This document shows, one piece after another, positions 12,782 to 26,017 of a stretch of DNA of 64,000 bases. Every line of letters begins with the position of its first letter. The first letter of the stretch is position 1. Source of the stretch: Seonamhaeicola aphaedonensis (GTDB lineage Bacteria > Bacteroidota > Bacteroidia > Flavobacteriales > Flavobacteriaceae); the NCBI RefSeq assembly GCF_003386195.1, contig NZ_QRDX01000001.1:496001-560000 (forward strand), written 5' to 3'. Both the position numbers and the translations under genes were made by a program. Under the pieces are notes generated by a model. It was not told the DNA's origin, ran no database searches, and was given only the letters and a program-made list of their open reading frames with translations.

Positions 12782-13744
12782 CTAATCTTTTTCTACTTTA
12801 TCAAATGTTGTATTTGCCCATCTAATTTGTGCTCTACCTCCTTTAACACGATAAGCACCATATCTTATTTTTGACTCTGTTGCTCGTTCTGGGTCTGGAA
12901 TGTTCCAATTAAAACTTTCTCCTCCAATTATAGCATCACAATAATGAATCTTTTTACTGGCATCATTTGAATCTACTCTAAAACCTACCTCCAACTGAAA
13001 ATCAGTTGGTTTATTCTTTTCAATATTCTTTAAGAAAACAATTTCTCTACCACTGCTTCCTTCTCCTCCACGAGTTAAAATACGTTCGGCATAAACATCA
13101 AACGACACTTGCTTATTTGAATTGGACCCTGTACCATAAACGGGCTTAGCTAAAAACAAACAAATAGCTGGATCAGGAGAACCCCCTCCTCCAGTGTGTT
13201 TCCCTTTGGCCTGTGCAATATAAGTACCATCATTGTTAGTTCCCGAAGTGTCTCCCACTTCTAGAATTCTTACTGTTCCATTAAATTTTACATATGTTCC
13301 TACACCAAGTTTAGCTGCTCTAGGTAATGAGCGTTCTATTCTAGGTTGCAGAGTAGCGTCAAATTTATTAGAACCATCTGTAATATTATAAACACCCCAA
13401 ACAGACCCCATAAGTGTGCTTTCCTTATAATTTGCATAACAACTTCTATCATCAATAGTTCCAACATTCACCGGATTTGGTAAATCATTTGACGTTCTGG
13501 TAGCATTTTCTCCATCTGGGTTACAAGTGGTATATGCGCCTGTATCTTCATCTGTTTCTTCAGAATCTGAATCTGGAACCGGGTCTGGAACCGGGTCTGG
13601 GTCTGGGTCTGGATTTGGTTCATCTACAACTACTTCATTTATTTCTTCTGAAGGTTCGCCTTCACTTTGGCAAGACACCAATATTCCAAAAACCATAAAC
13701 ACAATAGTAAATACTAGAGCGTAATTAAAATTTAACTTTTTCAT
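12782..13744 (-). CDS. Secreted lipoprotein, possible lyase/lectin-like jelly-roll domain
   Basis: A 320-residue lipoprotein (lipobox LVSC, Cys25). After the signal comes an acidic stretch and a low-complexity [18 protein letters not shown] linker (about residues 44-62), then a globular domain of about 245 residues. Segments such as [22 protein letters not shown]-like ending strands, [12 protein letters not shown] and [12 protein letters not shown] suggest a concanavalin-A-like sandwich resembling alginate-lyase-2 or laminin-G-like modules. The usual PL7 catalytic motifs are not clear to me, so enzyme function is not claimed. It may be a surface carbohydrate-binding protein. A terminator follows. 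Confidence 0.65.
13571..13612. repeat. Hexamer-based tandem repeat encoding the Asp-Pro linker
   Basis: On the plus strand, units of GGGTCT and GGAACC alternate and then run as GGGTCTGGGTCTGG. On the coding strand this makes the Pro-Asp-Pro-Val repeats. The 6-base unit keeps frame, so slippage would change linker length without a frameshift. Confidence 0.7.
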
Positions 13745-13930: not shown

Positions 13931-15061
13931 TTATTCCATACAAATTTCAGCTAATAAATTTAAATAATCACTTCGGTTTTTTACAAAGTCTTTATCTGAG
14001 ATATCAATGATTTTCACTTTAAAATCAGACTGGGTTTTTAAAAAATCCAGATAACCTTCGTTTATTTTATCGAGGTAGGTATCTTGAATATTTTGCTCAT
14101 AATCTCGTCCGCGTTTTTTAATATTTTCCTGCAGGCGTTGTGTATTTTGATAGAGATACACATAAAGTTCTGGTTTTGCAATGTCTTTATACATTAAATA
14201 AAACAATTTACGGTAGAGCTTAAATTCATCGTCTTGTAAGGTGATTTTAGAAAAAATAAGTGATTTAAAGACATCATAATCGCTTACAACAAAATCTTTA
14301 AATAAGTCTAATTGCGATAAATCATCAGAAATTTGCTGGTACCTGTCTGCCAGAAAAGACATTTCCAACGGAAAGGCATAACGTGTAGCATCTTTATAGA
14401 ATTTTGGCAAAAACGGATTGTCTGCAAACCGTTCCAGAATTAATTTCGCATTAAAATCTTGCGAAATCATAGTTGCTAAACTGGTTTTTCCTGCACCTAT
14501 ATTCCCCTCAATGGCAATATAATTATACTTAGAAAAATTAAACGCCTTTCTTGGGTTTTTAAGCCAAACATTGATGGGTTCTAAAACCGAATTATCCTCA
14601 CATTCATCCAATAAAACTGATACTTCTTTGGAAAGTTTAGGATGCTTAATTTTTGAGGCAATATCGTTTAAAGGTAGCAGTACAAATCTACGCTTTTGCA
14701 TTTCGGGATGAGGCACTTGCAATGTTTTTGTGTTAATTATTTCATCACCAGCCAACACAATATCTAAATCTATTGTTCGCGACTCGTAGCCCTTGCCTAT
14801 TTTTCTGGTGCGTCCTAATGATTTTTCAATTTTCAACAATGCTTTTAGAACCTTTTGGGGTTTTAAATAACTTTCTAATACCAAACAGGCATTTAAAAAT
14901 TCATCACCCTCAAAACCAAAAGCTGGAGACTTGTACACCTTAGAAATGAGTTTGATATTTCCAATTTGGGTATGAATAGAATCTACCGCTAATTGTAAGT
15001 TTCTAAACTTATCACCTTTATTACTCCCCAAAGCTATATGAAACGTGGTAGGTTGCGACAT
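13931..15061 (-). CDS. folK: Fused HPPK (folate pathway) and deoxynucleoside kinase
   Basis: Residues 1 to about 165 are 6-hydroxymethyl-7,8-dihydropterin pyrophosphokinase, with IALGSNKGDK, RTRKIGKGYESRTIDLDIVLAG and the VPHPEMQKRRFVLLPL motif. Residues about 178 to 376 are a deoxynucleoside kinase with the P-loop GNIGAGKTS, the FADNPFLPKFYKD segment with its ERF-type motif, and the RGRDYEQN lid. The frame is continuous through a short linker, so this is one polypeptide joining folate synthesis with nucleoside salvage. From memory, similar fusions occur in other Flavobacteriia. The N-terminal half is the source of the symbol. Confidence 0.9.
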   Translation of the reverse strand: MSQPTTFHIALGSNKGDKFRNLQLAVDSIHTQIGNIKLISKVYKSPAFGFEGDEFLNACLVLESYLKPQKVLKALLKIEKSLGRTRKIGKGYESRTIDLDIVLAGDEIINTKTLQVPHPEMQKRRFVLLPLNDIASKIKHPKLSKEVSVLLDECEDNSVLEPINVWLKNPRKAFNFSKYNYIAIEGNIGAGKTSLATMISQDFNAKLILERFADNPFLPKFYKDATRYAFPLEMSFLADRYQQISDDLSQLDLFKDFVVSDYDVFKSLIFSKITLQDDEFKLYRKLFYLMYKDIAKPELYVYLYQNTQRLQENIKKRGRDYEQNIQDTYLDKINEGYLDFLKTQSDFKVKIIDISDKDFVKNRSDYLNLLAEICME

Positions 15062-16052: not shown

Positions 16053-18728
16053 GTGAAAAAAGCCCTGAAAATAACAGGAATTACCATTTTTATAATTATA
16101 ACACTTTTAATGGCGCTTCCTTTGGCGTTTCAAGGGCAAATTAAAAACTTAGTAAAACGTTTTATCAACCAAAACCTAAATGCTAGAGTAGAGTTTAGTA
16201 ATATAAGTTTGAGTTTTATAAGGAGTTTCCCGCAAGCTCAAGTAAGTGTAAACGATTTGGTAATCAGCAATTTTAAACCATTTAAAGACGAAACTTTTGC
16301 TACAGTAAAGGATATGTCATTTACCATGTCTGTTAAAGAATTATTCAAAAAGACTGGTGACGATCCTATTGTGGTTAAGTCAATTAACATTGATGAAGCA
16401 TTATTAACTTTAAAAACTGACGCGCTTGGAAATAATAATTTTGATATTACCAAAGAAAAAATAAATCGTTCTACCACAGAAAACCATGAAAGTTTCTCTT
16501 TCAACATTGAAGATTATCAAATAAAAAATAGTGCTTTCTCTTACATTGATGAAGGGTCCGATATTTTAATCCATATTACAGAATTAAATCATGAAGGTCA
16601 CGGAACTTTCTCGACAGAAACTTCAGAATTAAATACACAAAGCGAAGGTAAAGTAAGTATTACTTTGGATAGCACTAAATTCTTAAATAGTAATCCCATT
16701 AAGTTAAACGCTTTGATTGATCTGGATTTAGAAAATTCAAAATACAGATTTAAAAACAATAAGGGATATATAAATGAGTTGCCTATAGAATTTAAAGGAT
16801 TTGTGCAACTTTTAGAAAACGGCCAGCAAATTGACATTACTTTTGAAAACCCTGAGTCTGATTTTAAAAATTTCTTAGCAGTAATTCCGAAAACGTATTC
16901 CAAAAATATCGAAAGTGTTGAAACCTTGGGAGAATTCAAAATAAAGGGGGTTATTAAAGGTTTAAATTCTGAAGAAACTATACCTAATTTCGATATTAGT
17001 ATAATATCTAATAATGCTTCATTTAAATACCCAGATTTACCTAAAAGAGTTAGTAATATTTCTATTAACACCCAAATAAAAAACGATTCGGGTAATATTG
17101 ATGACACTTACATAAATATTAATGCCCTAGATTTTAAGATAGACGAAGACGTATTCAAATCTTCAGCTACTCTAAAAAATCTAACTAAAAACTTGTTGGT
17201 GCATGCCAAGATTGATGGTGTTTTAAATTTAGCAAACATTTCAAAAGCGTATCCTGTGGAGTTGGATAATAATCTCACAGGCATTTTAAAAGGAAACATT
17301 ACAACATCTTTTGACATGAATGCTCTTGAAACCAATGCTTACCAACGTATTAAAAATAGTGGTACTGTTAGCATTACTGATTTTGTATTTTCTTCTGAAG
17401 ATATTGTAAATCCAATTCATATTTTACAAGCAAATATCACGTTTAATCCTGGAACTGTTTCTCTTAAAAATTTTAAAGCTAAAACCGGTGAAAGTGACAT
17501 AAATGCTACGGGAACTATTAATAATTTAATGGGGTTTTTGTTAAGCAACAACACTTTGAAAGGTAATTTCAATGTAAAATCTAACTTATTTAAGGTGAGT
17601 GATTTTATGAATGAAGACACAACAGTTTCTAAAAATAAAACGACCAGTGATACGGAATCACTTAAAATTCCAGACTTTTTAGAGTGCACTATAAACACCA
17701 ATGCTCAAACGGTGATTTATGACAATTTAAATTTAAAAGATGTTGAAGGAACACTTTTTATAAAAGACCAAAAGGCATCACTCCAAAAGATGACATCTTC
17801 AATTTTTGATGGTAAACTAGCCATAAATGGAGATGTTTCAACCAAAGACAAAACACCCGTTTTTAACTTAAGCTTAGATGCTAATAATTTTGATATTGCC
17901 CAGTCTTTTAAAAACTTAGAGTTATTACAGAATTTAGTCCCTGTTGCCAATTTAATTCAGGGAAAACTAAATACATCCTTAAATCTATCAGGCGCTTTAG
18001 ATGAAGAATTTTTACCCATTTTAAACTCTGTGTCTGGCGATGCCCTCGCAGAAATATTGACAACAAATATTAATACTGAAGATGGTATTTTGAATAAATT
18101 ACAGAGTTCACTTAATTTCATAGATTTTGAAAAGTTAGATTTAAAAGATGTAAAAACTAAGCTAGAGTTTGCTAACGGAAAAGTTGCTGTAAAACCTTTT
18201 AATTTGAAATACAAGGACATAGACATTGAAGTTTCGGGTGCACACAACTTTGATAAATCACTTAACTATAATGCCGTATTTAATGTACCTGCAAAATATT
18301 TAGGAAGTGAAGTCAATCTCCTTATTAATCAAATTAACGATGCTCAAGTAAACAATATCACCATTCCTGTTACAGCAAATATTACTGGCGTTTTTAGTAA
18401 ACCAAATGTAAAAACCGATTTAACCAGTGGGGTTAAAAACTTAACAAATCAACTTATTGAAATTCAAAAGCAAAAGTTACTAAAGCAGGGCAAGGATAAG
18501 GTTAAAAACCTCATAGGCGATGTTATTGGAGGCAACAAAACAAAAACAGATTCTATTAAAAAGGAACAAAACAATACCGTTGAAACTGTTTTGAACGACA
18601 TTATAAAAAATAAAACCCCTCAAGATTCCTTAGCTACCGATAGCGCAAAGTCTACAGAAAAAGTCATTAAAAATGTGCTTGGTGGTCTATTAACTAATAA
18701 GAAAAAAAAGAAAGATACTATTAAGTAA
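16053..18728 (+). CDS. AsmA-family envelope protein
   Basis: A 891-residue protein with one N-terminal membrane helix (ITIFIIITLLMALPLAF) followed by LKNLVKRFINQNLNARVEFSNISLSF-type sequence, the mark of AsmA proteins. The long remainder is repetitive beta-strand with many Asn, Ser, Lys and Asp residues. A typical AsmA C-terminal portion includes the segment DINATGTINNLMG and the region ending KKKKKDTIK. AsmA-like proteins bridge the periplasm and are implicated in phospholipid delivery to the outer membrane. The start is GTG, giving MKKALKITG. A 217-base AT-rich gap with no evident gene precedes it. Confidence 0.88.
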   Translation: MKKALKITGITIFIIITLLMALPLAFQGQIKNLVKRFINQNLNARVEFSNISLSFIRSFPQAQVSVNDLVISNFKPFKDETFATVKDMSFTMSVKELFKKTGDDPIVVKSINIDEALLTLKTDALGNNNFDITKEKINRSTTENHESFSFNIEDYQIKNSAFSYIDEGSDILIHITELNHEGHGTFSTETSELNTQSEGKVSITLDSTKFLNSNPIKLNALIDLDLENSKYRFKNNKGYINELPIEFKGFVQLLENGQQIDITFENPESDFKNFLAVIPKTYSKNIESVETLGEFKIKGVIKGLNSEETIPNFDISIISNNASFKYPDLPKRVSNISINTQIKNDSGNIDDTYININALDFKIDEDVFKSSATLKNLTKNLLVHAKIDGVLNLANISKAYPVELDNNLTGILKGNITTSFDMNALETNAYQRIKNSGTVSITDFVFSSEDIVNPIHILQANITFNPGTVSLKNFKAKTGESDINATGTINNLMGFLLSNNTLKGNFNVKSNLFKVSDFMNEDTTVSKNKTTSDTESLKIPDFLECTINTNAQTVIYDNLNLKDVEGTLFIKDQKASLQKMTSSIFDGKLAINGDVSTKDKTPVFNLSLDANNFDIAQSFKNLELLQNLVPVANLIQGKLNTSLNLSGALDEEFLPILNSVSGDALAEILTTNINTEDGILNKLQSSLNFIDFEKLDLKDVKTKLEFANGKVAVKPFNLKYKDIDIEVSGAHNFDKSLNYNAVFNVPAKYLGSEVNLLINQINDAQVNNITIPVTANITGVFSKPNVKTDLTSGVKNLTNQLIEIQKQKLLKQGKDKVKNLIGDVIGGNKTKTDSIKKEQNNTVETVLNDIIKNKTPQDSLATDSAKSTEKVIKNVLGGLLTNKKKKKDTIK

Positions 18729-19012
18729 TTTTAAGCATTCGTATTCGAGGCTAACCTTTTCGACTTCATTTCACCTTCTTAAAGCCAACTATTACAATTG
18801 ATAATGTAGACTTTTTTATTAAATATACTTGGCGAGCAAGATATATTTATACTAAAACCAAAAATCACTAAAAACAGGCAAAATACATCTAAAAAATTGT
18901 CATTTTGATGAATTTTAGCACATTTTTTAACAAAAAAGGTTAATTTTTTGGATTTTACAGTTTTTATTTTAGTTTACAAAAAGTAATATAATAAAACATT
19001 TAAATAACTTTT

Positions 19013-19876
19013 ATGAGGCAATTAAAAATCACAAAACAAATTACCAACAGATCATCTAAATCACTAGATAAATACTTACAAGATATTAGTAAACTAGAAC
19101 TGATTACGGCTGATGAGGAGGTAGAGTTAGCACAACGAATTAAAAAAGGTGACCAAAGAGCCTTAGACAAACTCGTGACAGCCAATTTAAGATTTGTGGT
19201 TTCGGTTGCAAAGCAGTATCAAAATCAAGGACTATCTCTACCCGATTTGATTAATGAGGGAAACGCTGGTTTAGTAAAAGCTGCAAAACGCTTTGATGAA
19301 ACTAGAGGGTTTAAGTTTATCTCTTATGCCGTTTGGTGGATTAGACAATCTATTTTACAATCTATTGCTAAGCAAGCACGAGTAATAAGATTACCACTAA
19401 ACAAAATTGGTTCTATTAATAAAATAAGAAAAGCCTATTCGTATTTAGAGCAAACTCATGAGCGCGAACCTAGCGCCCAAGAAATTGCCAAAAACCTAAA
19501 TTTAAGTGTAAATAATGTAAAGCAATCCATGAAAGTAAGTGTTGGACATTTATCTATGGACGCACCATTTCAAGAGGGAGAACATTCTAATTTATACGAT
19601 ATAGTAAAGTCTGAGGAAACACCTCTACCTGATGCTGCACTAATGGAGTCATCCTTAAATATTGAAATGAATCGAGTTTTAGAAACATTATCTAAAAAGG
19701 AAGCACATGTAATCAAACACTTTTATGGCATTAGTGAAAAACACCCCAAGAGTTTGGAAGAAATTGGTGATAATATTGGGTTGTCTCGAGAGCGTGTTAG
19801 ACAAATTAAAGAGAAAGGGATTCGCAGATTGCGACATTCCTCAAAAAACAAAGTTTTAAAAAAGTACTTAGGATAA
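19013..19876 (+). CDS. RpoD-like group 1/2 sigma factor, diverged paralogue
   Basis: A sigma-70 factor of 287 residues with region 1.2 (residues 17-45), region 2 ([16 protein letters not shown] to WWIRQSILQ, residues 59-116), region 3 (about 124-200) and the region 4 helix-turn-helix ([22 protein letters not shown], about 247-268). Length and start MRQLKITKQ match the Bacteroidota primary sigma factor. However, many positions differ from the consensus I remember, for example [38 protein letters not shown] and RRLRHSSKN. It is therefore probably a second, RpoD-related sigma. A bS21 gene follows after 12 bases. No clear promoter is visible in the 284-base gap upstream, where TATACTTG at 18824 is a near match. 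Confidence 0.9.
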
Positions 19877-19888
19877 AAAAATAAAAAT

Positions 19889-20083
19889 ATGTTAAAAATA
19901 ATAGTAAAAGAAGGCGAAAACATTGAGCGTGCCTTAAAACGCTATAAACGAAAACACCGAAATATTAAGGTAATGCAAAACCTAAAAGAAAATCAATATT
20001 TCACGAAACCTTCTGTGAAACGCAGGCAGGAAATTCAAAAAGCAGCCTATATTCAACAGTTGAAAGACGCCGAAGATATTTAA
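19889..20083 (+). CDS. rpsU: Ribosomal protein bS21, probable paralogue
   Basis: A 64-residue basic protein with the bS21 signature (VKEGENIERALKRYKRKH, then KPSVKRRQEIQKAAYIQQL). bS21 binds the 30S platform near the 16S rRNA 3' end. In Flavobacterium it helps occlude the anti-Shine-Dalgarno sequence. Tyr54, which I recall as important for that, is kept. The middle (NIKVMQNLKENQYFTK) departs from the canonical KTGTVRQLRARTAFIK-type sequence, and the canonical rpsU neighbours (xerC, hpf) are missing, so I read this as a paralogue. An AGGA lies 15 bases before the ATG, too far for a normal ribosome binding site. Confidence 0.88.
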   Translation: MLKIIVKEGENIERALKRYKRKHRNIKVMQNLKENQYFTKPSVKRRQEIQKAAYIQQLKDAEDI

Positions 20084-20476: not shown

Positions 20477-21271
20477 TTAAGGTAGTGAAATACGAACTAC
20501 GTGTCCTTCATTGGCTCTAATATTAAAAACCGTCTCGTCTTCAAAAATTAAATATTGCCCTTTTACACCTACTAGTTTACCAGTGTAAGATTGTTCTTTT
20601 ACAATATTTAGACTCCTTGGCTTTTCAGGGTATTTTAATACAGGGAATTCTAGGTTAGTTTCAGAATTATTCTGAATAAAATACTCTTTTGATTCAGCAG
20701 GAATATAAGACCTTAATTGTTCTCTCCATTCTACCAAATTTTCGTCTTTAATTTCATTCTTCAACATGGTACGCCAATTGGTCTTATCACTAACATGATC
20801 TTTCAAGGCAACCTCTGTAATACCCGCCAAATATCTGTTTGGCACCTCTACTATTTCAATGGCTTCATGAGCACCTTGATCTATCCAACGAGTTGGCACC
20901 TGACTTTTCCTAGTTACCCCAACTTTTACATTACTGGAATTTGCCAAATAAACAATATGGGGTTGTAATTGGGTCTTTTTTTCAAACTCTAAATCACGTT
21001 CTTCTATACCTAAATGCGCTTTACTTAATTCTGGCCGCATTACCCAATCGGCTGCTTGAGGCACTTCATAAAAACATTGTTTATCAAACCCTTGACGATA
21101 AATGGGTTTATCCTGCCCACAGTTTAAACATTGGTACTTAACAAACTCCAAAGTTATGGTTTTATTTAAAAGTTGATTTAGGTTTATAAAATCGTTTTCA
21201 AATACCAAATAATATTGAATCGGACTTGTAAATTCCGTTTCCATTTTTGTTAAAACACCTTGGTAGAACAT
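20477..21271 (-). CDS. DUF2797 family protein
   Basis: A 264-residue protein matching the DUF2797 layout. A putative zinc ribbon CLNCGQDKPIYRQG near residue 54 is followed by a GIY-YIG-like strand pair in HIVYLANSSNVKVGVTRKSQVP, then TRWIDQGAHEAIEI and a long C-terminal region. The VYLA/VKVGVTR segment is how DUF2797 resembles GIY-YIG nucleases. No activity is established to my knowledge. It is divergent from the GH3 gene with only a 42-base gap, so both promoters must be packed there. Confidence 0.8.
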   Translation of the reverse strand: MFYQGVLTKMETEFTSPIQYYLVFENDFINLNQLLNKTITLEFVKYQCLNCGQDKPIYRQGFDKQCFYEVPQAADWVMRPELSKAHLGIEERDLEFEKKTQLQPHIVYLANSSNVKVGVTRKSQVPTRWIDQGAHEAIEIVEVPNRYLAGITEVALKDHVSDKTNWRTMLKNEIKDENLVEWREQLRSYIPAESKEYFIQNNSETNLEFPVLKYPEKPRSLNIVKEQSYTGKLVGVKGQYLIFEDETVFNIRANEGHVVRISLP

Positions 21272-21313: not shown

Positions 21314-22828
21314 ATGCCAATTCCCTTAGTAAATTCTATTGCTTCTTGGTTTCTAAAGAAGCGTTTTCATCAAATTGAATTGTTTTTAAAATACCCCAAT
21401 GAAGTACAATTAGAGTTACTACACAATCTTGTAGGGTTTGCAAAAGATACTGAAATGGGTAAAAAATATGATTTTGCCTCCATCAAAAATTACGAAACTT
21501 TTGCTGAACGTATTCCTATTTTAAATTATGATGGTTGGCAGGATTATATTTCACGCTCCAGACATGGTGAGCCAAATATTTTTTGGCCAACACCTATCAA
21601 ATGGTTTGCTAAGTCTAGTGGCACCACAAGAGCTAAAAGTAAGTTTATTCCTGTAAGCGAAGAATCTTTAGAAGATTGCCACTATGCTGCAAGTAAGGAT
21701 TTGTTGTGTATGTATTTGAACAATAATGAAGATTCTCAATTATTTACAGGAAAAAGTTTAAGGTTAGGTGGTAGTAAAGAATTATACAAGGAAAATGGTA
21801 CTATCTTTGGCGATTTATCTGCAATCTTGATTGACAACATGCCTTTTTGGGCAGAATTTAGCAGTACCCCTAGCAATAAAGTATCCTTAATGAGCGATTG
21901 GGAATACAAAATGCAGGCTATTGTAGATGAAACCATTAATGAAAACGTAACTAGTTTAGCTGGAGTACCATCATGGATGTTGGTGTTACTAAATAATGTT
22001 TTAGAAACTACAGGTAAAGGACACTTGTTTGATGTTTGGCCAAATCTAGAAGTTTACTTTCACGGAGGGGTGAGTTTTACTCCCTACAAGGACCAGTATA
22101 AAAAAATTCTACCTAAAAACAACTTTAGGTATTATGAAATTTATAATGCCTCTGAAGGATTTTTTGCTATTCAAGATCAAAATAACTCCAGTGAATTACT
22201 ATTAATGCTTGACTATGGTATTTTTTATGAGTTTATTCCTATGAATATTTATGGAACACCCGATGAAAAAGCCATTCCTTTGAGTGCGGTTAAGCTCCAT
22301 CAAAATTATGCCGTCATCATCACTACTAATGCTGGTTTATGGCGCTACAAGATTGGTGATACCATTCGTTTTACATCGTTAAACCCTTACCGTATAAAAA
22401 TTTCGGGACGCACTAAACATCATATTAACGTATTTGGTGAAGAATTAATCATTGAAAATGCCGAAGAAGCTCTTAAAAAAGTCTGTAAACGAACTAAAGC
22501 TGAAATTGTTGATTTTACCGCGGCGCCCATTTTTATGGAGGGTAAAGAAAAGGGGGCTCATGAGTGGCTCATTGAATTTAAAACACCTCCAAAAGATATT
22601 AATTATTTTAATGAGTTATTTGATAATGCCTTAAAGGCTTTAAACTCTGATTATGAAGCCAAACGTTATAATAACATAACTTTAAACAAACCTAAAATAA
22701 ATATAGCACGTCATCACTTGTTTAGAGATTGGTTAAAAAATAACAATAAATTAGGGGGGCAACACAAAGTACCACGACTCTCCAATACTAGAGATTATAT
22801 CGATGATCTTTTAAAGCTAAATTCCTAA
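21314..22828 (+). CDS. GH3-family acyl-adenylating enzyme
   Basis: A 504-residue member of the GH3 auxin-responsive promoter family within the ANL superfamily. Adenylation motifs are visible: the P-loop-like SSGTTRAKSKFIPVS (about residues 100-114), YNASEGFFAIQD, and WRYKIGDTIRFT near the hinge before a smaller C-terminal domain with SGRTKHHINVFGE. Plant GH3 proteins conjugate amino acids to hormones. Bacterial members are widespread but their substrates are unknown. An ATP-dependent acyl-activating role is supported, an auxin role is not. Confidence 0.88.
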   Translation: MPIPLVNSIASWFLKKRFHQIELFLKYPNEVQLELLHNLVGFAKDTEMGKKYDFASIKNYETFAERIPILNYDGWQDYISRSRHGEPNIFWPTPIKWFAKSSGTTRAKSKFIPVSEESLEDCHYAASKDLLCMYLNNNEDSQLFTGKSLRLGGSKELYKENGTIFGDLSAILIDNMPFWAEFSSTPSNKVSLMSDWEYKMQAIVDETINENVTSLAGVPSWMLVLLNNVLETTGKGHLFDVWPNLEVYFHGGVSFTPYKDQYKKILPKNNFRYYEIYNASEGFFAIQDQNNSSELLLMLDYGIFYEFIPMNIYGTPDEKAIPLSAVKLHQNYAVIITTNAGLWRYKIGDTIRFTSLNPYRIKISGRTKHHINVFGEELIIENAEEALKKVCKRTKAEIVDFTAAPIFMEGKEKGAHEWLIEFKTPPKDINYFNELFDNALKALNSDYEAKRYNNITLNKPKINIARHHLFRDWLKNNNKLGGQHKVPRLSNTRDYIDDLLKLNS

Positions 22829-25501: not shown

Positions 25502-26017
25502 TTAGCTTAAGGCAGCTATTAATTCGGCTTTCTTCATTGAAGAAATTCCAGCTATTCCTTTAGCTTTTGCTAATTCTTTTAATTCAGCTACAGTTAAACT
25601 ACTTAAATCTTGAGTTGCTTCAGCTGGCTTAGCTTCTGCTTTTGGCGTCTCTACTTTAGTAGCCTCTTTTTTAACTTCTTTAGCTGGAGCAGCTTTTTTA
25701 GCTCCTGAAGCAACAATACTGTCAATTATTATTTCTGTTAAAGCTTGACGGTGACCATTTTTCACACGGTAACCTTTACGTCTTTTCTTTTTAAAGACGA
25801 TTACTTTATCACCTTTAAGATGTTTAACGACTTTTGCTCCAACTTGAGCGCCGTCTATAGCCGGGGCGCCAACAGTTACATTGTCACCATCAGCAACTAA
25901 AAGAACATTATCGAAAGCAACTTGCTTTCCTTCTTCAGCTTGTAAACGGTTAACAAAAACTTTTTGGTCTTTCTCAACTTTAAATTGATGCCCTGCTATC
26001 TCTACAATTGCGTACAT
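25502..26017 (-). CDS. rplU: Ribosomal protein bL21 with C-terminal SAP/Rho-N-like extension
   Basis: Residues 1 to about 103 are a standard bL21 ([35 protein letters not shown]). An Ala/Lys/Glu/Pro linker follows (about 104-134), then a separate small domain of about 35 residues, [19 protein letters not shown] to [10 protein letters not shown]. This reads as a SAP or Rho N-terminal-like helical fold of the kind that binds nucleic acids. Such extensions appear in other Flavobacteriaceae as I recall. The extension adds about 65 residues to the roughly 103 of a normal bL21. The gene leads the rplU-rpmA operon and has a clear promoter. Confidence 0.94.

Follow-up and report, generated by a model that had tools for sequence, protein, structure and literature searches.

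A conserved two-gene operon of Flavobacteriaceae encoding a second RpoD-type sigma factor and a spare bS21 that may replace bS21 on ribosomes

Introduction

Why should a gene for a ribosomal protein share an operon with a gene for a sigma factor? The question is raised by a 64,000-nt stretch of the Seonamhaeicola aphaedonensis genome (called here the window). An earlier note described in it a 287-residue sigma factor and a 64-residue bS21 homologue, which do lie on the same strand, 12 bases apart. The note suggested that the sigma factor transcribes one gene set while the bS21 protein builds ribosomes matched to it. We call the two genes sigma2 and bS21-2; the source genome (3.5 Mb, 99.99% complete) is coded G000.

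In Flavobacterium johnsoniae, according to the available passages of McNutt 2023 (PMC9976891), bS21 helps to hide the anti-Shine-Dalgarno (anti-SD) sequence, with Tyr54 stacking on A1534 of the 16S tail. Ribosomes lacking bS21 preferentially translate rpsU by means of its extended SD, an instance of autoregulation (PMC9976891).

Results

Genes of the locus and their paralogues in the genome

The features of the locus are listed below in window coordinates.

16053..18728, + strand: conserved upstream neighbour of 891 aa, no Pfam match
18946..18978, + strand: promoter-like element of the operon, TTTTGGATTTTACAGTTTTTATTTTAGTTTACA, 34 nt 5' of the sigma2 ATG (motif model)
19013..19876, + strand: sigma2, a group-2-like sigma-70 factor, RpoD/SigA paralogue of 287 aa (ORF, Pfam, identity to RpoD, tree)
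19877..19888, + strand: gap of 12 bases between sigma2 and bS21-2, without extended SD
19889..20083, + strand: bS21-2, a bS21 paralogue of 64 aa with Tyr54 present and without extended SD (ORF, Pfam, tree, SD energy)
20477..21271, - strand: conserved downstream neighbour, DUF2797 (Pfam and synteny)
21314..22828, + strand: conserved next neighbour, GH3 family (Pfam and synteny)

The 891-aa upstream neighbour we take to be AsmA-like. The Pfam domains Sigma70 r1.2, r2, r3 and r4 were each found in sigma2 above cut-off. Presence of these regions and kinship to RpoD (70% identity) suggest that sigma2 fits group 2 of the sigma-70 factors. Among NCBIfam models, a superfamily model scored above cut-off, and the best RpoD equivalog model reached 275 of 555 bits, below cut-off. 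The S21 domain extends over the length of bS21-2 (Ribosomal_S21, PF01165, 60.1 bits with cut-off 27; TIGR00030, 47.8 bits with cut-off 28.95); the protein matched chain z of PDB entry 7jil with E 4e-16.

The search for a second rpoD and a second rpsU, which the earlier note had proposed, yielded three genes of each kind. The RpoD-like sigma factors of G000 are sigma2, C1:200409 (70% identity to sigma2) and C2:420589 (54%); the bS21 genes are bS21-2, C4:119614 (61% identity to bS21-2) and C2:419639 (52%). Two more bS21 matches (E 0.2-0.4) both contained stops. C1:200409, whose neighbours are presumably rpe and ftsZ/ftsA, is the housekeeping RpoD, and C4:119614 is the housekeeping rpsU. The note was thus right that both window proteins are diverged (70 and 61% identity to the housekeeping copies) and that the canonical rpsU neighbours are missing from the window locus; what we take to be xerC-hpf-tuf adjoins C4:119614 instead. 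The housekeeping RpoD has 287 aa as well, so the length of sigma2 is normal here. The nearest named record seen is Seonamhaeicola sediminis (L138), with 95% identity in acyl-CoA dehydrogenase, 89% in xerC and 92% in hpf.

The third sigma factor (sigma-C) and the third bS21 (bS21-C) share an operon of their own, with the order csp - bS21 - NYN/OST-HTH - sigma. It is located on C2 (L009:7388-9447), and such operons were likewise seen in G001, G119 and G164; in G239 the NYN gene is missing between the two genes, and G015 has another order, bS21-sigma-csp. The sigma-C type was detected in six of 299 Flavobacteriaceae genomes at E 1e-102, with bS21 nearby in four (G000, G119, G164, G239) and none near in G023 and G266. 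In G164 the csp-bS21-NYN-sigma operon (L226 4234-8668) adjoins DUF2797-GH3, the same neighbours as those of the window pair; both kinds of module may therefore share an origin.

Three further genes of the window, all on the - strand, are recorded here. At 25502-26017 ribosomal protein bL21 is extended at its C-terminus by a part that matches Rho_N (SAP and HeH were below cut-offs). At 13931-15061 a single protein joins an HPPK domain (folate synthesis) with a deoxynucleoside kinase domain. A PL28 ulvan lyase, encoded at 12782-13744, would be in keeping with life on marine algae.

Distribution and phylogeny of the pair

Of the 39 genomes examined first, 11 had a bS21 of the window type (at least 71% identity), with a sigma gene directly upstream in four of the 11. 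The search was extended to 299 Flavobacteriaceae genomes; bS21-2 was detected in 86 of them, i.e. in 68 of 236 genera (E 1e-21 or better). The pairing recurs in relatives, a point the earlier note had left to be checked: sigma2 is located immediately upstream on the same strand at 46 of the 86 loci (38 genera by genus codes) and is absent from there at 40. Neither condition under which the note would have given up its idea, sole copies of rpoD and rpsU in the genome or lack of the pairing in relatives, applies. The gap between paired genes ranges from 9 to 218 nt (27-41 nt in 37 of 46), and at least one of the four expected neighbours was present at 85 of the 86 loci. In a set of named records, 20 of 80 loci among the matches listed were of the bS21-2 type, 13 of the 20 with the sigma gene upstream; this set overlaps the 86 family loci (e.g. 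L067 with G023, L073 with G019). A more diverged sigma and bS21 pair was found in Aquimarina (L136) among the matches listed, and three solo sigma2 genes stand without bS21-2.

Two records have a LysE-type exporter between bS21-2 and DUF2797 (L043:5238-5861, just below the Pfam cut-off; L048:6139-6762, above it). A LysE-type exporter of F. psychrophilum is listed with a promoter of the SM5 type described below (PMC9723704, available passages).

Among 20 unpaired genomes searched, 17 had a single RpoD-type match, which rules out relocation of sigma2 in these 17. As for the other three, G023 has a sigma factor of the sigma-C type, and G106 and G159 have a second match at 69 and 68%. Loss of sigma2 is traceable in G040 (one of the 40 unpaired loci), since a 16-residue stub of the sigma2 C-terminus remains 5' of bS21-2.

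In the sigma tree a branch with support 98/99 (bootstrap not settled) parts sigma2 from the housekeeping RpoDs. On the non-RpoD side are 58 of 58 paired sigma2 rows, the three solo genes, the Aquimarina sigma, a second sigma of G018 and nine of ten sigma-C rows; the tenth (L055) has a very long branch and is placed elsewhere. The bS21 tree, built on few columns and without bootstrap, recovers three groups: 83 of 88 bS21-2 rows (support 87), 21 of 22 rows of housekeeping bS21 (94), and bS21-C together with Aquimarina (83). Paired and unpaired bS21-2 rows are interleaved, and five of the unpaired ones are placed apart from the main group. The suggestion of separate clades is supported for sigma2, which stands apart from the primary sigma and is absent from many relatives, and weakly supported for the short bS21-2.

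A tree of DUF2797 (75 of 86 rows) gave one independent pair on supported branches. As it was too poorly resolved, four neighbouring genes were concatenated (quick search; 84 of 86 rows, 82 with both traits; 25 of the 84 rows with less than half of the columns filled). On the best tree presence of sigma2 changes 18 times, and at least 11 of these changes are forced by branches with SH-aLRT of at least 95. Values of dN/dS against the nearest relative, G005, were 0.07 for sigma2, 0.05 for bS21-2 and 0.007 for housekeeping RpoD, which indicates purifying selection on the operon genes, weaker than that on RpoD.

Promoter-like element and DNA reading by sigma2

The housekeeping -7 box of Bacteroidetes, TAnnTTTG, was found within 120 nt upstream of all 50 housekeeping rpsU genes that bear an SD (expected 3.6), a set that excludes seven loci without strong SD (six Bacteroidales-type records and the MAG L113). 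Within the same distance the box was found at 2 of 46 paired (expected 1.4) and 13 of 40 unpaired bS21-2 genes (expected 2.8); none was reported within 120 nt 5' of bS21-2 at the window locus. Upstream of sigma2 starts it was found at 1 of 44 (expected 5.3); an artefactual sigma2 row (L162) met in the counts for rpsU and bS21-2 was used neither for this figure nor for the comparison of promoter types below.

Instead of this box, a longer element was detected upstream of sigma2. Its model, which assumes one site per sequence, has 28.2 bits (55 non-redundant loci) vs 9.3 in the shuffled set; the 56 training loci exceed shuffles by construction. Individual sites scored 9.9-43 bits (training median 29.8, 56 loci) and end 22-40 nt 5' of the start. 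The window element, at 13.6 bits, is among the weaker copies and is the only match above 12 bits in the 64 kb. All 56 copies have TTNGN (or CTTGN), then 17-19 bases (18 in 51 copies), then TA; the box search held TA fixed, allowed few letters at places 5 and 6 and left the last two free. TAnnTTTG occurs inside the element in 0 of 56 copies.

A related box is known from F. psychrophilum: the available passages of PMC9723704 describe SM5, with TAnnTTGY instead of TAnnTTTG as the -7 box, placed as in the sigma2 element and serving LPS, amino-acid scavenging and gliding genes, in a species with sigma-A, sigma-54 and seven ECF factors only. The sigma2 elements differ from SM5 (PMC9723704) in that they also carry a long conserved -33 half, and the strict form TAnnTTG[CT] fits nine of 56 boxes. 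A loose form that admits G or A as the seventh letter fits 48 of 56; the window box has A there.

The comparison of promoter types covered 84 of the 86 loci (two sigma starts could not be placed). The variant composite promoter was present at 38 of 44 loci with sigma2 vs 4 of 40 without (expected 1.0 and 0.7), and AnnTTTG[CT] at 8 of 44 vs 26 of 40 (expected 6.3 and 3.5). Over 11 independent pairs the variant promoter followed sigma2, with means of 8.4 pairs in the same direction, 0.2 in the opposite one and 2.4 without difference (sign test on supported branches, median p 0.008, range 0.002-0.125). For a swap to the housekeeping box, independent pairs gave no significant trend (median p 0.5). 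At several loci without sigma2 the left half of the element is kept and the right half ends TTTG; of the 40 loci without sigma2, 19 have a whole-element score that exceeds the 95th percentile of shuffles. A variant-type box is kept in four genomes without sigma2, each with one RpoD-type match: the pattern picked out G006 and G061, and the score together with inspection by eye picked out G050 and G282. G023 and G065 match the variant pattern, yet carry TTTG too. The promoter-like element of the operon differs from the housekeeping type and is mostly absent where sigma2 is absent.

Upstream of the sigma-C, solo and Aquimarina sigma genes no clear copy of the full element was seen by eye, with partial resemblance at the solo genes of G007 and G017. 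These two genes, at another locus (L057, L058), have by eye a similar TTTGGA...GTATA-TG arrangement upstream.

The 4.2 helix of sigma2, which reads the -33 element, and region 2.3 are identical to those of RpoD. In region 2.4 the window sigma2 differs from RpoD at six places, most other sigma2 proteins at one. Consistent differences between sigma2 and RpoD number 20, with five at residues 15-29 (region 1.2) and the other 15 spread over positions 52, 56, 85, 88, 113, 143, 171, 187, 198, 211, 227, 229, 269, 274 and 278. Region 1.2 of E. coli sigma-70 contacts the DNA immediately downstream of the -10 box; differences in this region would be in keeping with altered bases at the end of the box. 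In our reading, sigma2 probably contributes to the activation of its own operon and has many promoters in common with RpoD.

A regulon was sought with the promoter pattern, allowing up to one mismatch. The 11 genomes with sigma2 gave 27 hits vs 23 in the backward control, and 10 genomes without sigma2 gave 17 vs 24. Seven of the 27 hits lie at sigma2 operons; in G000, G005, G059 and G145 the pattern did not find the operon. Exact hits numbered six in the 21 genomes, five at sigma2 operons and the sixth elsewhere in G005. This negative result is a weak one, as the pattern recovers the operon in no more than 7 of the 11 genomes with sigma2 and the genes adjoining the other hits are unnamed; a broader sigma2 regulon is possible. 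For the idea of one gene set served by matched ribosomes the outcome is unfavourable: there was no excess of pattern hits over control, 40 of 86 bS21-2 genes lack sigma2, the three solo sigma2 genes lack bS21-2, and the 4.2 helix is that of RpoD.

The same observations bear on two other explanations. In the first, sigma2 would mainly transcribe its own operon, with bS21-2 as the chief output and no wider regulon, and after loss of sigma2 the bS21-2 gene would be kept by gaining a promoter readable by RpoD. The concentration of exact hits at sigma2 operons (five of six), the tracking of sigma2 by the variant promoter (38/44 vs 4/40 loci, and over independent pairs), the loci where the right half of the element ends TTTG, the stub in G040 (1 of 40) and the five of 20 differences lying in region 1.2 all speak for it. 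We nevertheless regard this arrangement as rather unlikely, given that recovery of the operon in only 7 of 11 genomes leaves room for a regulon, that four genomes keep a variant-type box without sigma2, that solo sigma2 genes exist without bS21-2 and that the SM5 box is present in F. psychrophilum, for which the available passages of PMC9723704 report no second RpoD.

In the second, held by us in similarly low favour, the operon would be read from an SM5-type promoter by another regulator or an ECF sigma factor, sigma2 and bS21-2 being mere outputs of a stress or life-style signal. The TAnnTTGY box that F. psychrophilum has in the same place before its genes for LPS, gliding and scavenging of amino acids (PMC9723704, available passages) and the four genomes that keep a variant-type box without sigma2 are in line with this explanation; the fit of the strict form to only 9 of 56 boxes and the correlation of promoter type with presence of sigma2 argue against it.

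bS21-2 protein and Shine-Dalgarno wiring

The 16S 3' end, with the anti-SD intact (GGCTGGAACACCTCCTTTCT), occurs as a single copy in the G000 assembly. Pairing energy was computed between this tail and the 25 nt 5' of each start; an extended SD was defined as -10 kcal/mol or below. The housekeeping set comprised 57 of 61 candidates (L082, L092, L132 and L136 were omitted because their context differs or is missing); all of the set but L084 adjoin xerC or hpf. The median energy of housekeeping rpsU was -18.4 kcal/mol, with 50 of 57 at -10 or below; the seven weaker loci are six Bacteroidales-type records and one Flavobacteriaceae MAG (L113). The housekeeping rpsU of G000 has an extended SD of the F. 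johnsoniae kind.

None of the 86 family bS21-2 loci has an extended SD, the strongest reaching -9.8 kcal/mol. Medians were -0.2 kcal/mol for paired genes (0/46 at -10 or below, one at -9.8) and -1.3 kcal/mol for unpaired genes (0/40, one at -7.3). An extended SD is likewise missing at the 20 bS21-2 loci of the named set, among the matches listed (these overlap the 86), at the seven bS21-C and Aquimarina loci and at the 52 window ORFs of at least 100 aa. A genome-wide count of SD-bearing starts (GGAGGT-N-ATG) gave 171 matches vs 144 in the control, uninformative without gene calls; rpsU was among the matches.

Tyr54 is present in 109 of 109 rows (107 bS21-2 rows with overlapping genomes, plus Aquimarina and Tenacibaculum), in five of six bS21-C rows and in 21 of 22 distinct housekeeping rows. 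Further positions were compared over rows of length 64 (18 housekeeping, 106 bS21-2, five bS21-C). Housekeeping residues 50-52, 54-56, 59, 60 and 62 are retained in at least 90% of bS21-2 rows; bS21-C departs from housekeeping bS21 at 50, 55, 56, 60 and 62. Near-fixed differences between bS21-2 and bS21 are located at residues 13, 23, 24, 27, 30 and 47. Loss of ribosome contacts by bS21-2 is not supported, given the conserved C-terminus. Judged by these residues and the SD energies, bS21-2 would keep the anti-SD shut while standing outside the SD feedback; any altered initiation would then stem from the near-fixed differences and not from anti-SD opening.

It is also conceivable, though we think it improbable, that bS21-2 is a redundant backup and that its place beside a sigma gene is historical. 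Such a history is suggested by the 40 of 86 loci with bS21-2 and no sigma2 and by the 18 changes in presence of sigma2, at least 11 of them forced by supported branches. Against it, neighbourhoods of sigma and bS21 recur (sigma2-bS21-2, csp-bS21-NYN-sigma, bS21-sigma-csp and the separate Aquimarina pair), the near-fixed differences at 23-30 and 47 show a distinct, constrained protein, and the wiring by SD and promoter is unlike that of nearly all flavobacterial rpsU genes compared (the MAG L113 has an SD-less housekeeping rpsU).

We consider it very unlikely that bS21-2 is a reserve against exchange of bS21 by phages, which often encode bS21, instead of a growth-phase switch. McNutt 2023 does discuss phage bS21 and Bacteroidia hosts (PMC9976891, available passages), but the locus is chromosomal, syntenic and near clpXP, no defence genes were noted by inspection among the neighbours, and a single scan of viral contigs gave only five relatives, of at most 65% identity. 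Phage origin was rejected, the five viral relatives of this one scan being weak.

Discussion

With a probability of about one half, we read the locus as a conserved two-gene operon in which a second RpoD-type sigma factor is made with a spare bS21, and bS21-2 replaces bS21 on ribosomes. Once the operon is on, bS21-2 would be made without waiting for ribosomes that lack bS21. It would enter 30S subunits, the anti-SD would stay hidden, and the signal that drives translation of housekeeping rpsU would be removed; the ribosome pool would move from bS21 to bS21-2. In other words, bS21-2 without SD feedback, if loaded on ribosomes, should replace bS21 and depress rpsU. As far as the sequences can tell, the operon most likely exchanges one form of bS21 for another on ribosomes, with self- or co-activation of the operon alongside; a matched transcription-translation programme is offered as a hypothesis.

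A bolder version is doubtful in our view. In it, sigma2 would activate itself from a promoter on which RpoD works poorly. The SD-free bS21 of its operon would replace the normal one on the 30S platform and silence rpsU by keeping the anti-SD shut, so that one switch acts on both RNA polymerase and the ribosome; the same cell would have a second module of this kind in the csp-bS21-NYN-sigma operon.

Three observations go beyond the earlier note: the bS21 paralogue lacks the extended SD of rpsU, the promoter type goes with presence of sigma2, and G000 has a second operon of sigma and bS21. As compared with F. johnsoniae rpsU (PMC9976891, available passages), bS21-2 belongs to the same family and has Tyr54 and the conserved C-terminus, but it lacks the extended SD and is placed in a sigma operon. 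The list of bS21 paralogues in the same passages names other phyla; Bacteroidia are not in it (PMC9976891). Francisella tularensis, of a different phylum, has several bS21 paralogues per genome, as G000 does; these reportedly become part of ribosomes, a single one of them sustaining growth in macrophages (PMC9578407; PMC9976891, available passages). Dokdonia, likewise marine flavobacteria, have a second RpoD homologue, with a promoter consensus that the available passages of PMC3587595 state as unknown; the term 'S21' is absent from the main text of that paper. No sigma-bS21 pairing was found in the literature searched, i.e. mostly titles, starts of abstracts and passages, with most subscription journals and preprints outside the scope.

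Do differently composed ribosomes serve different programmes? The question is open. In this family, a ribosomal protein that gates the anti-SD has a paralogue without the known feedback signal, located beside its own sigma factor in 38 sampled genera. Genomes with bS21-2 and without sigma2 offer natural comparisons, and exchange of bS21 can be tested directly with the SD-dependent rpsU reporter of F. johnsoniae.
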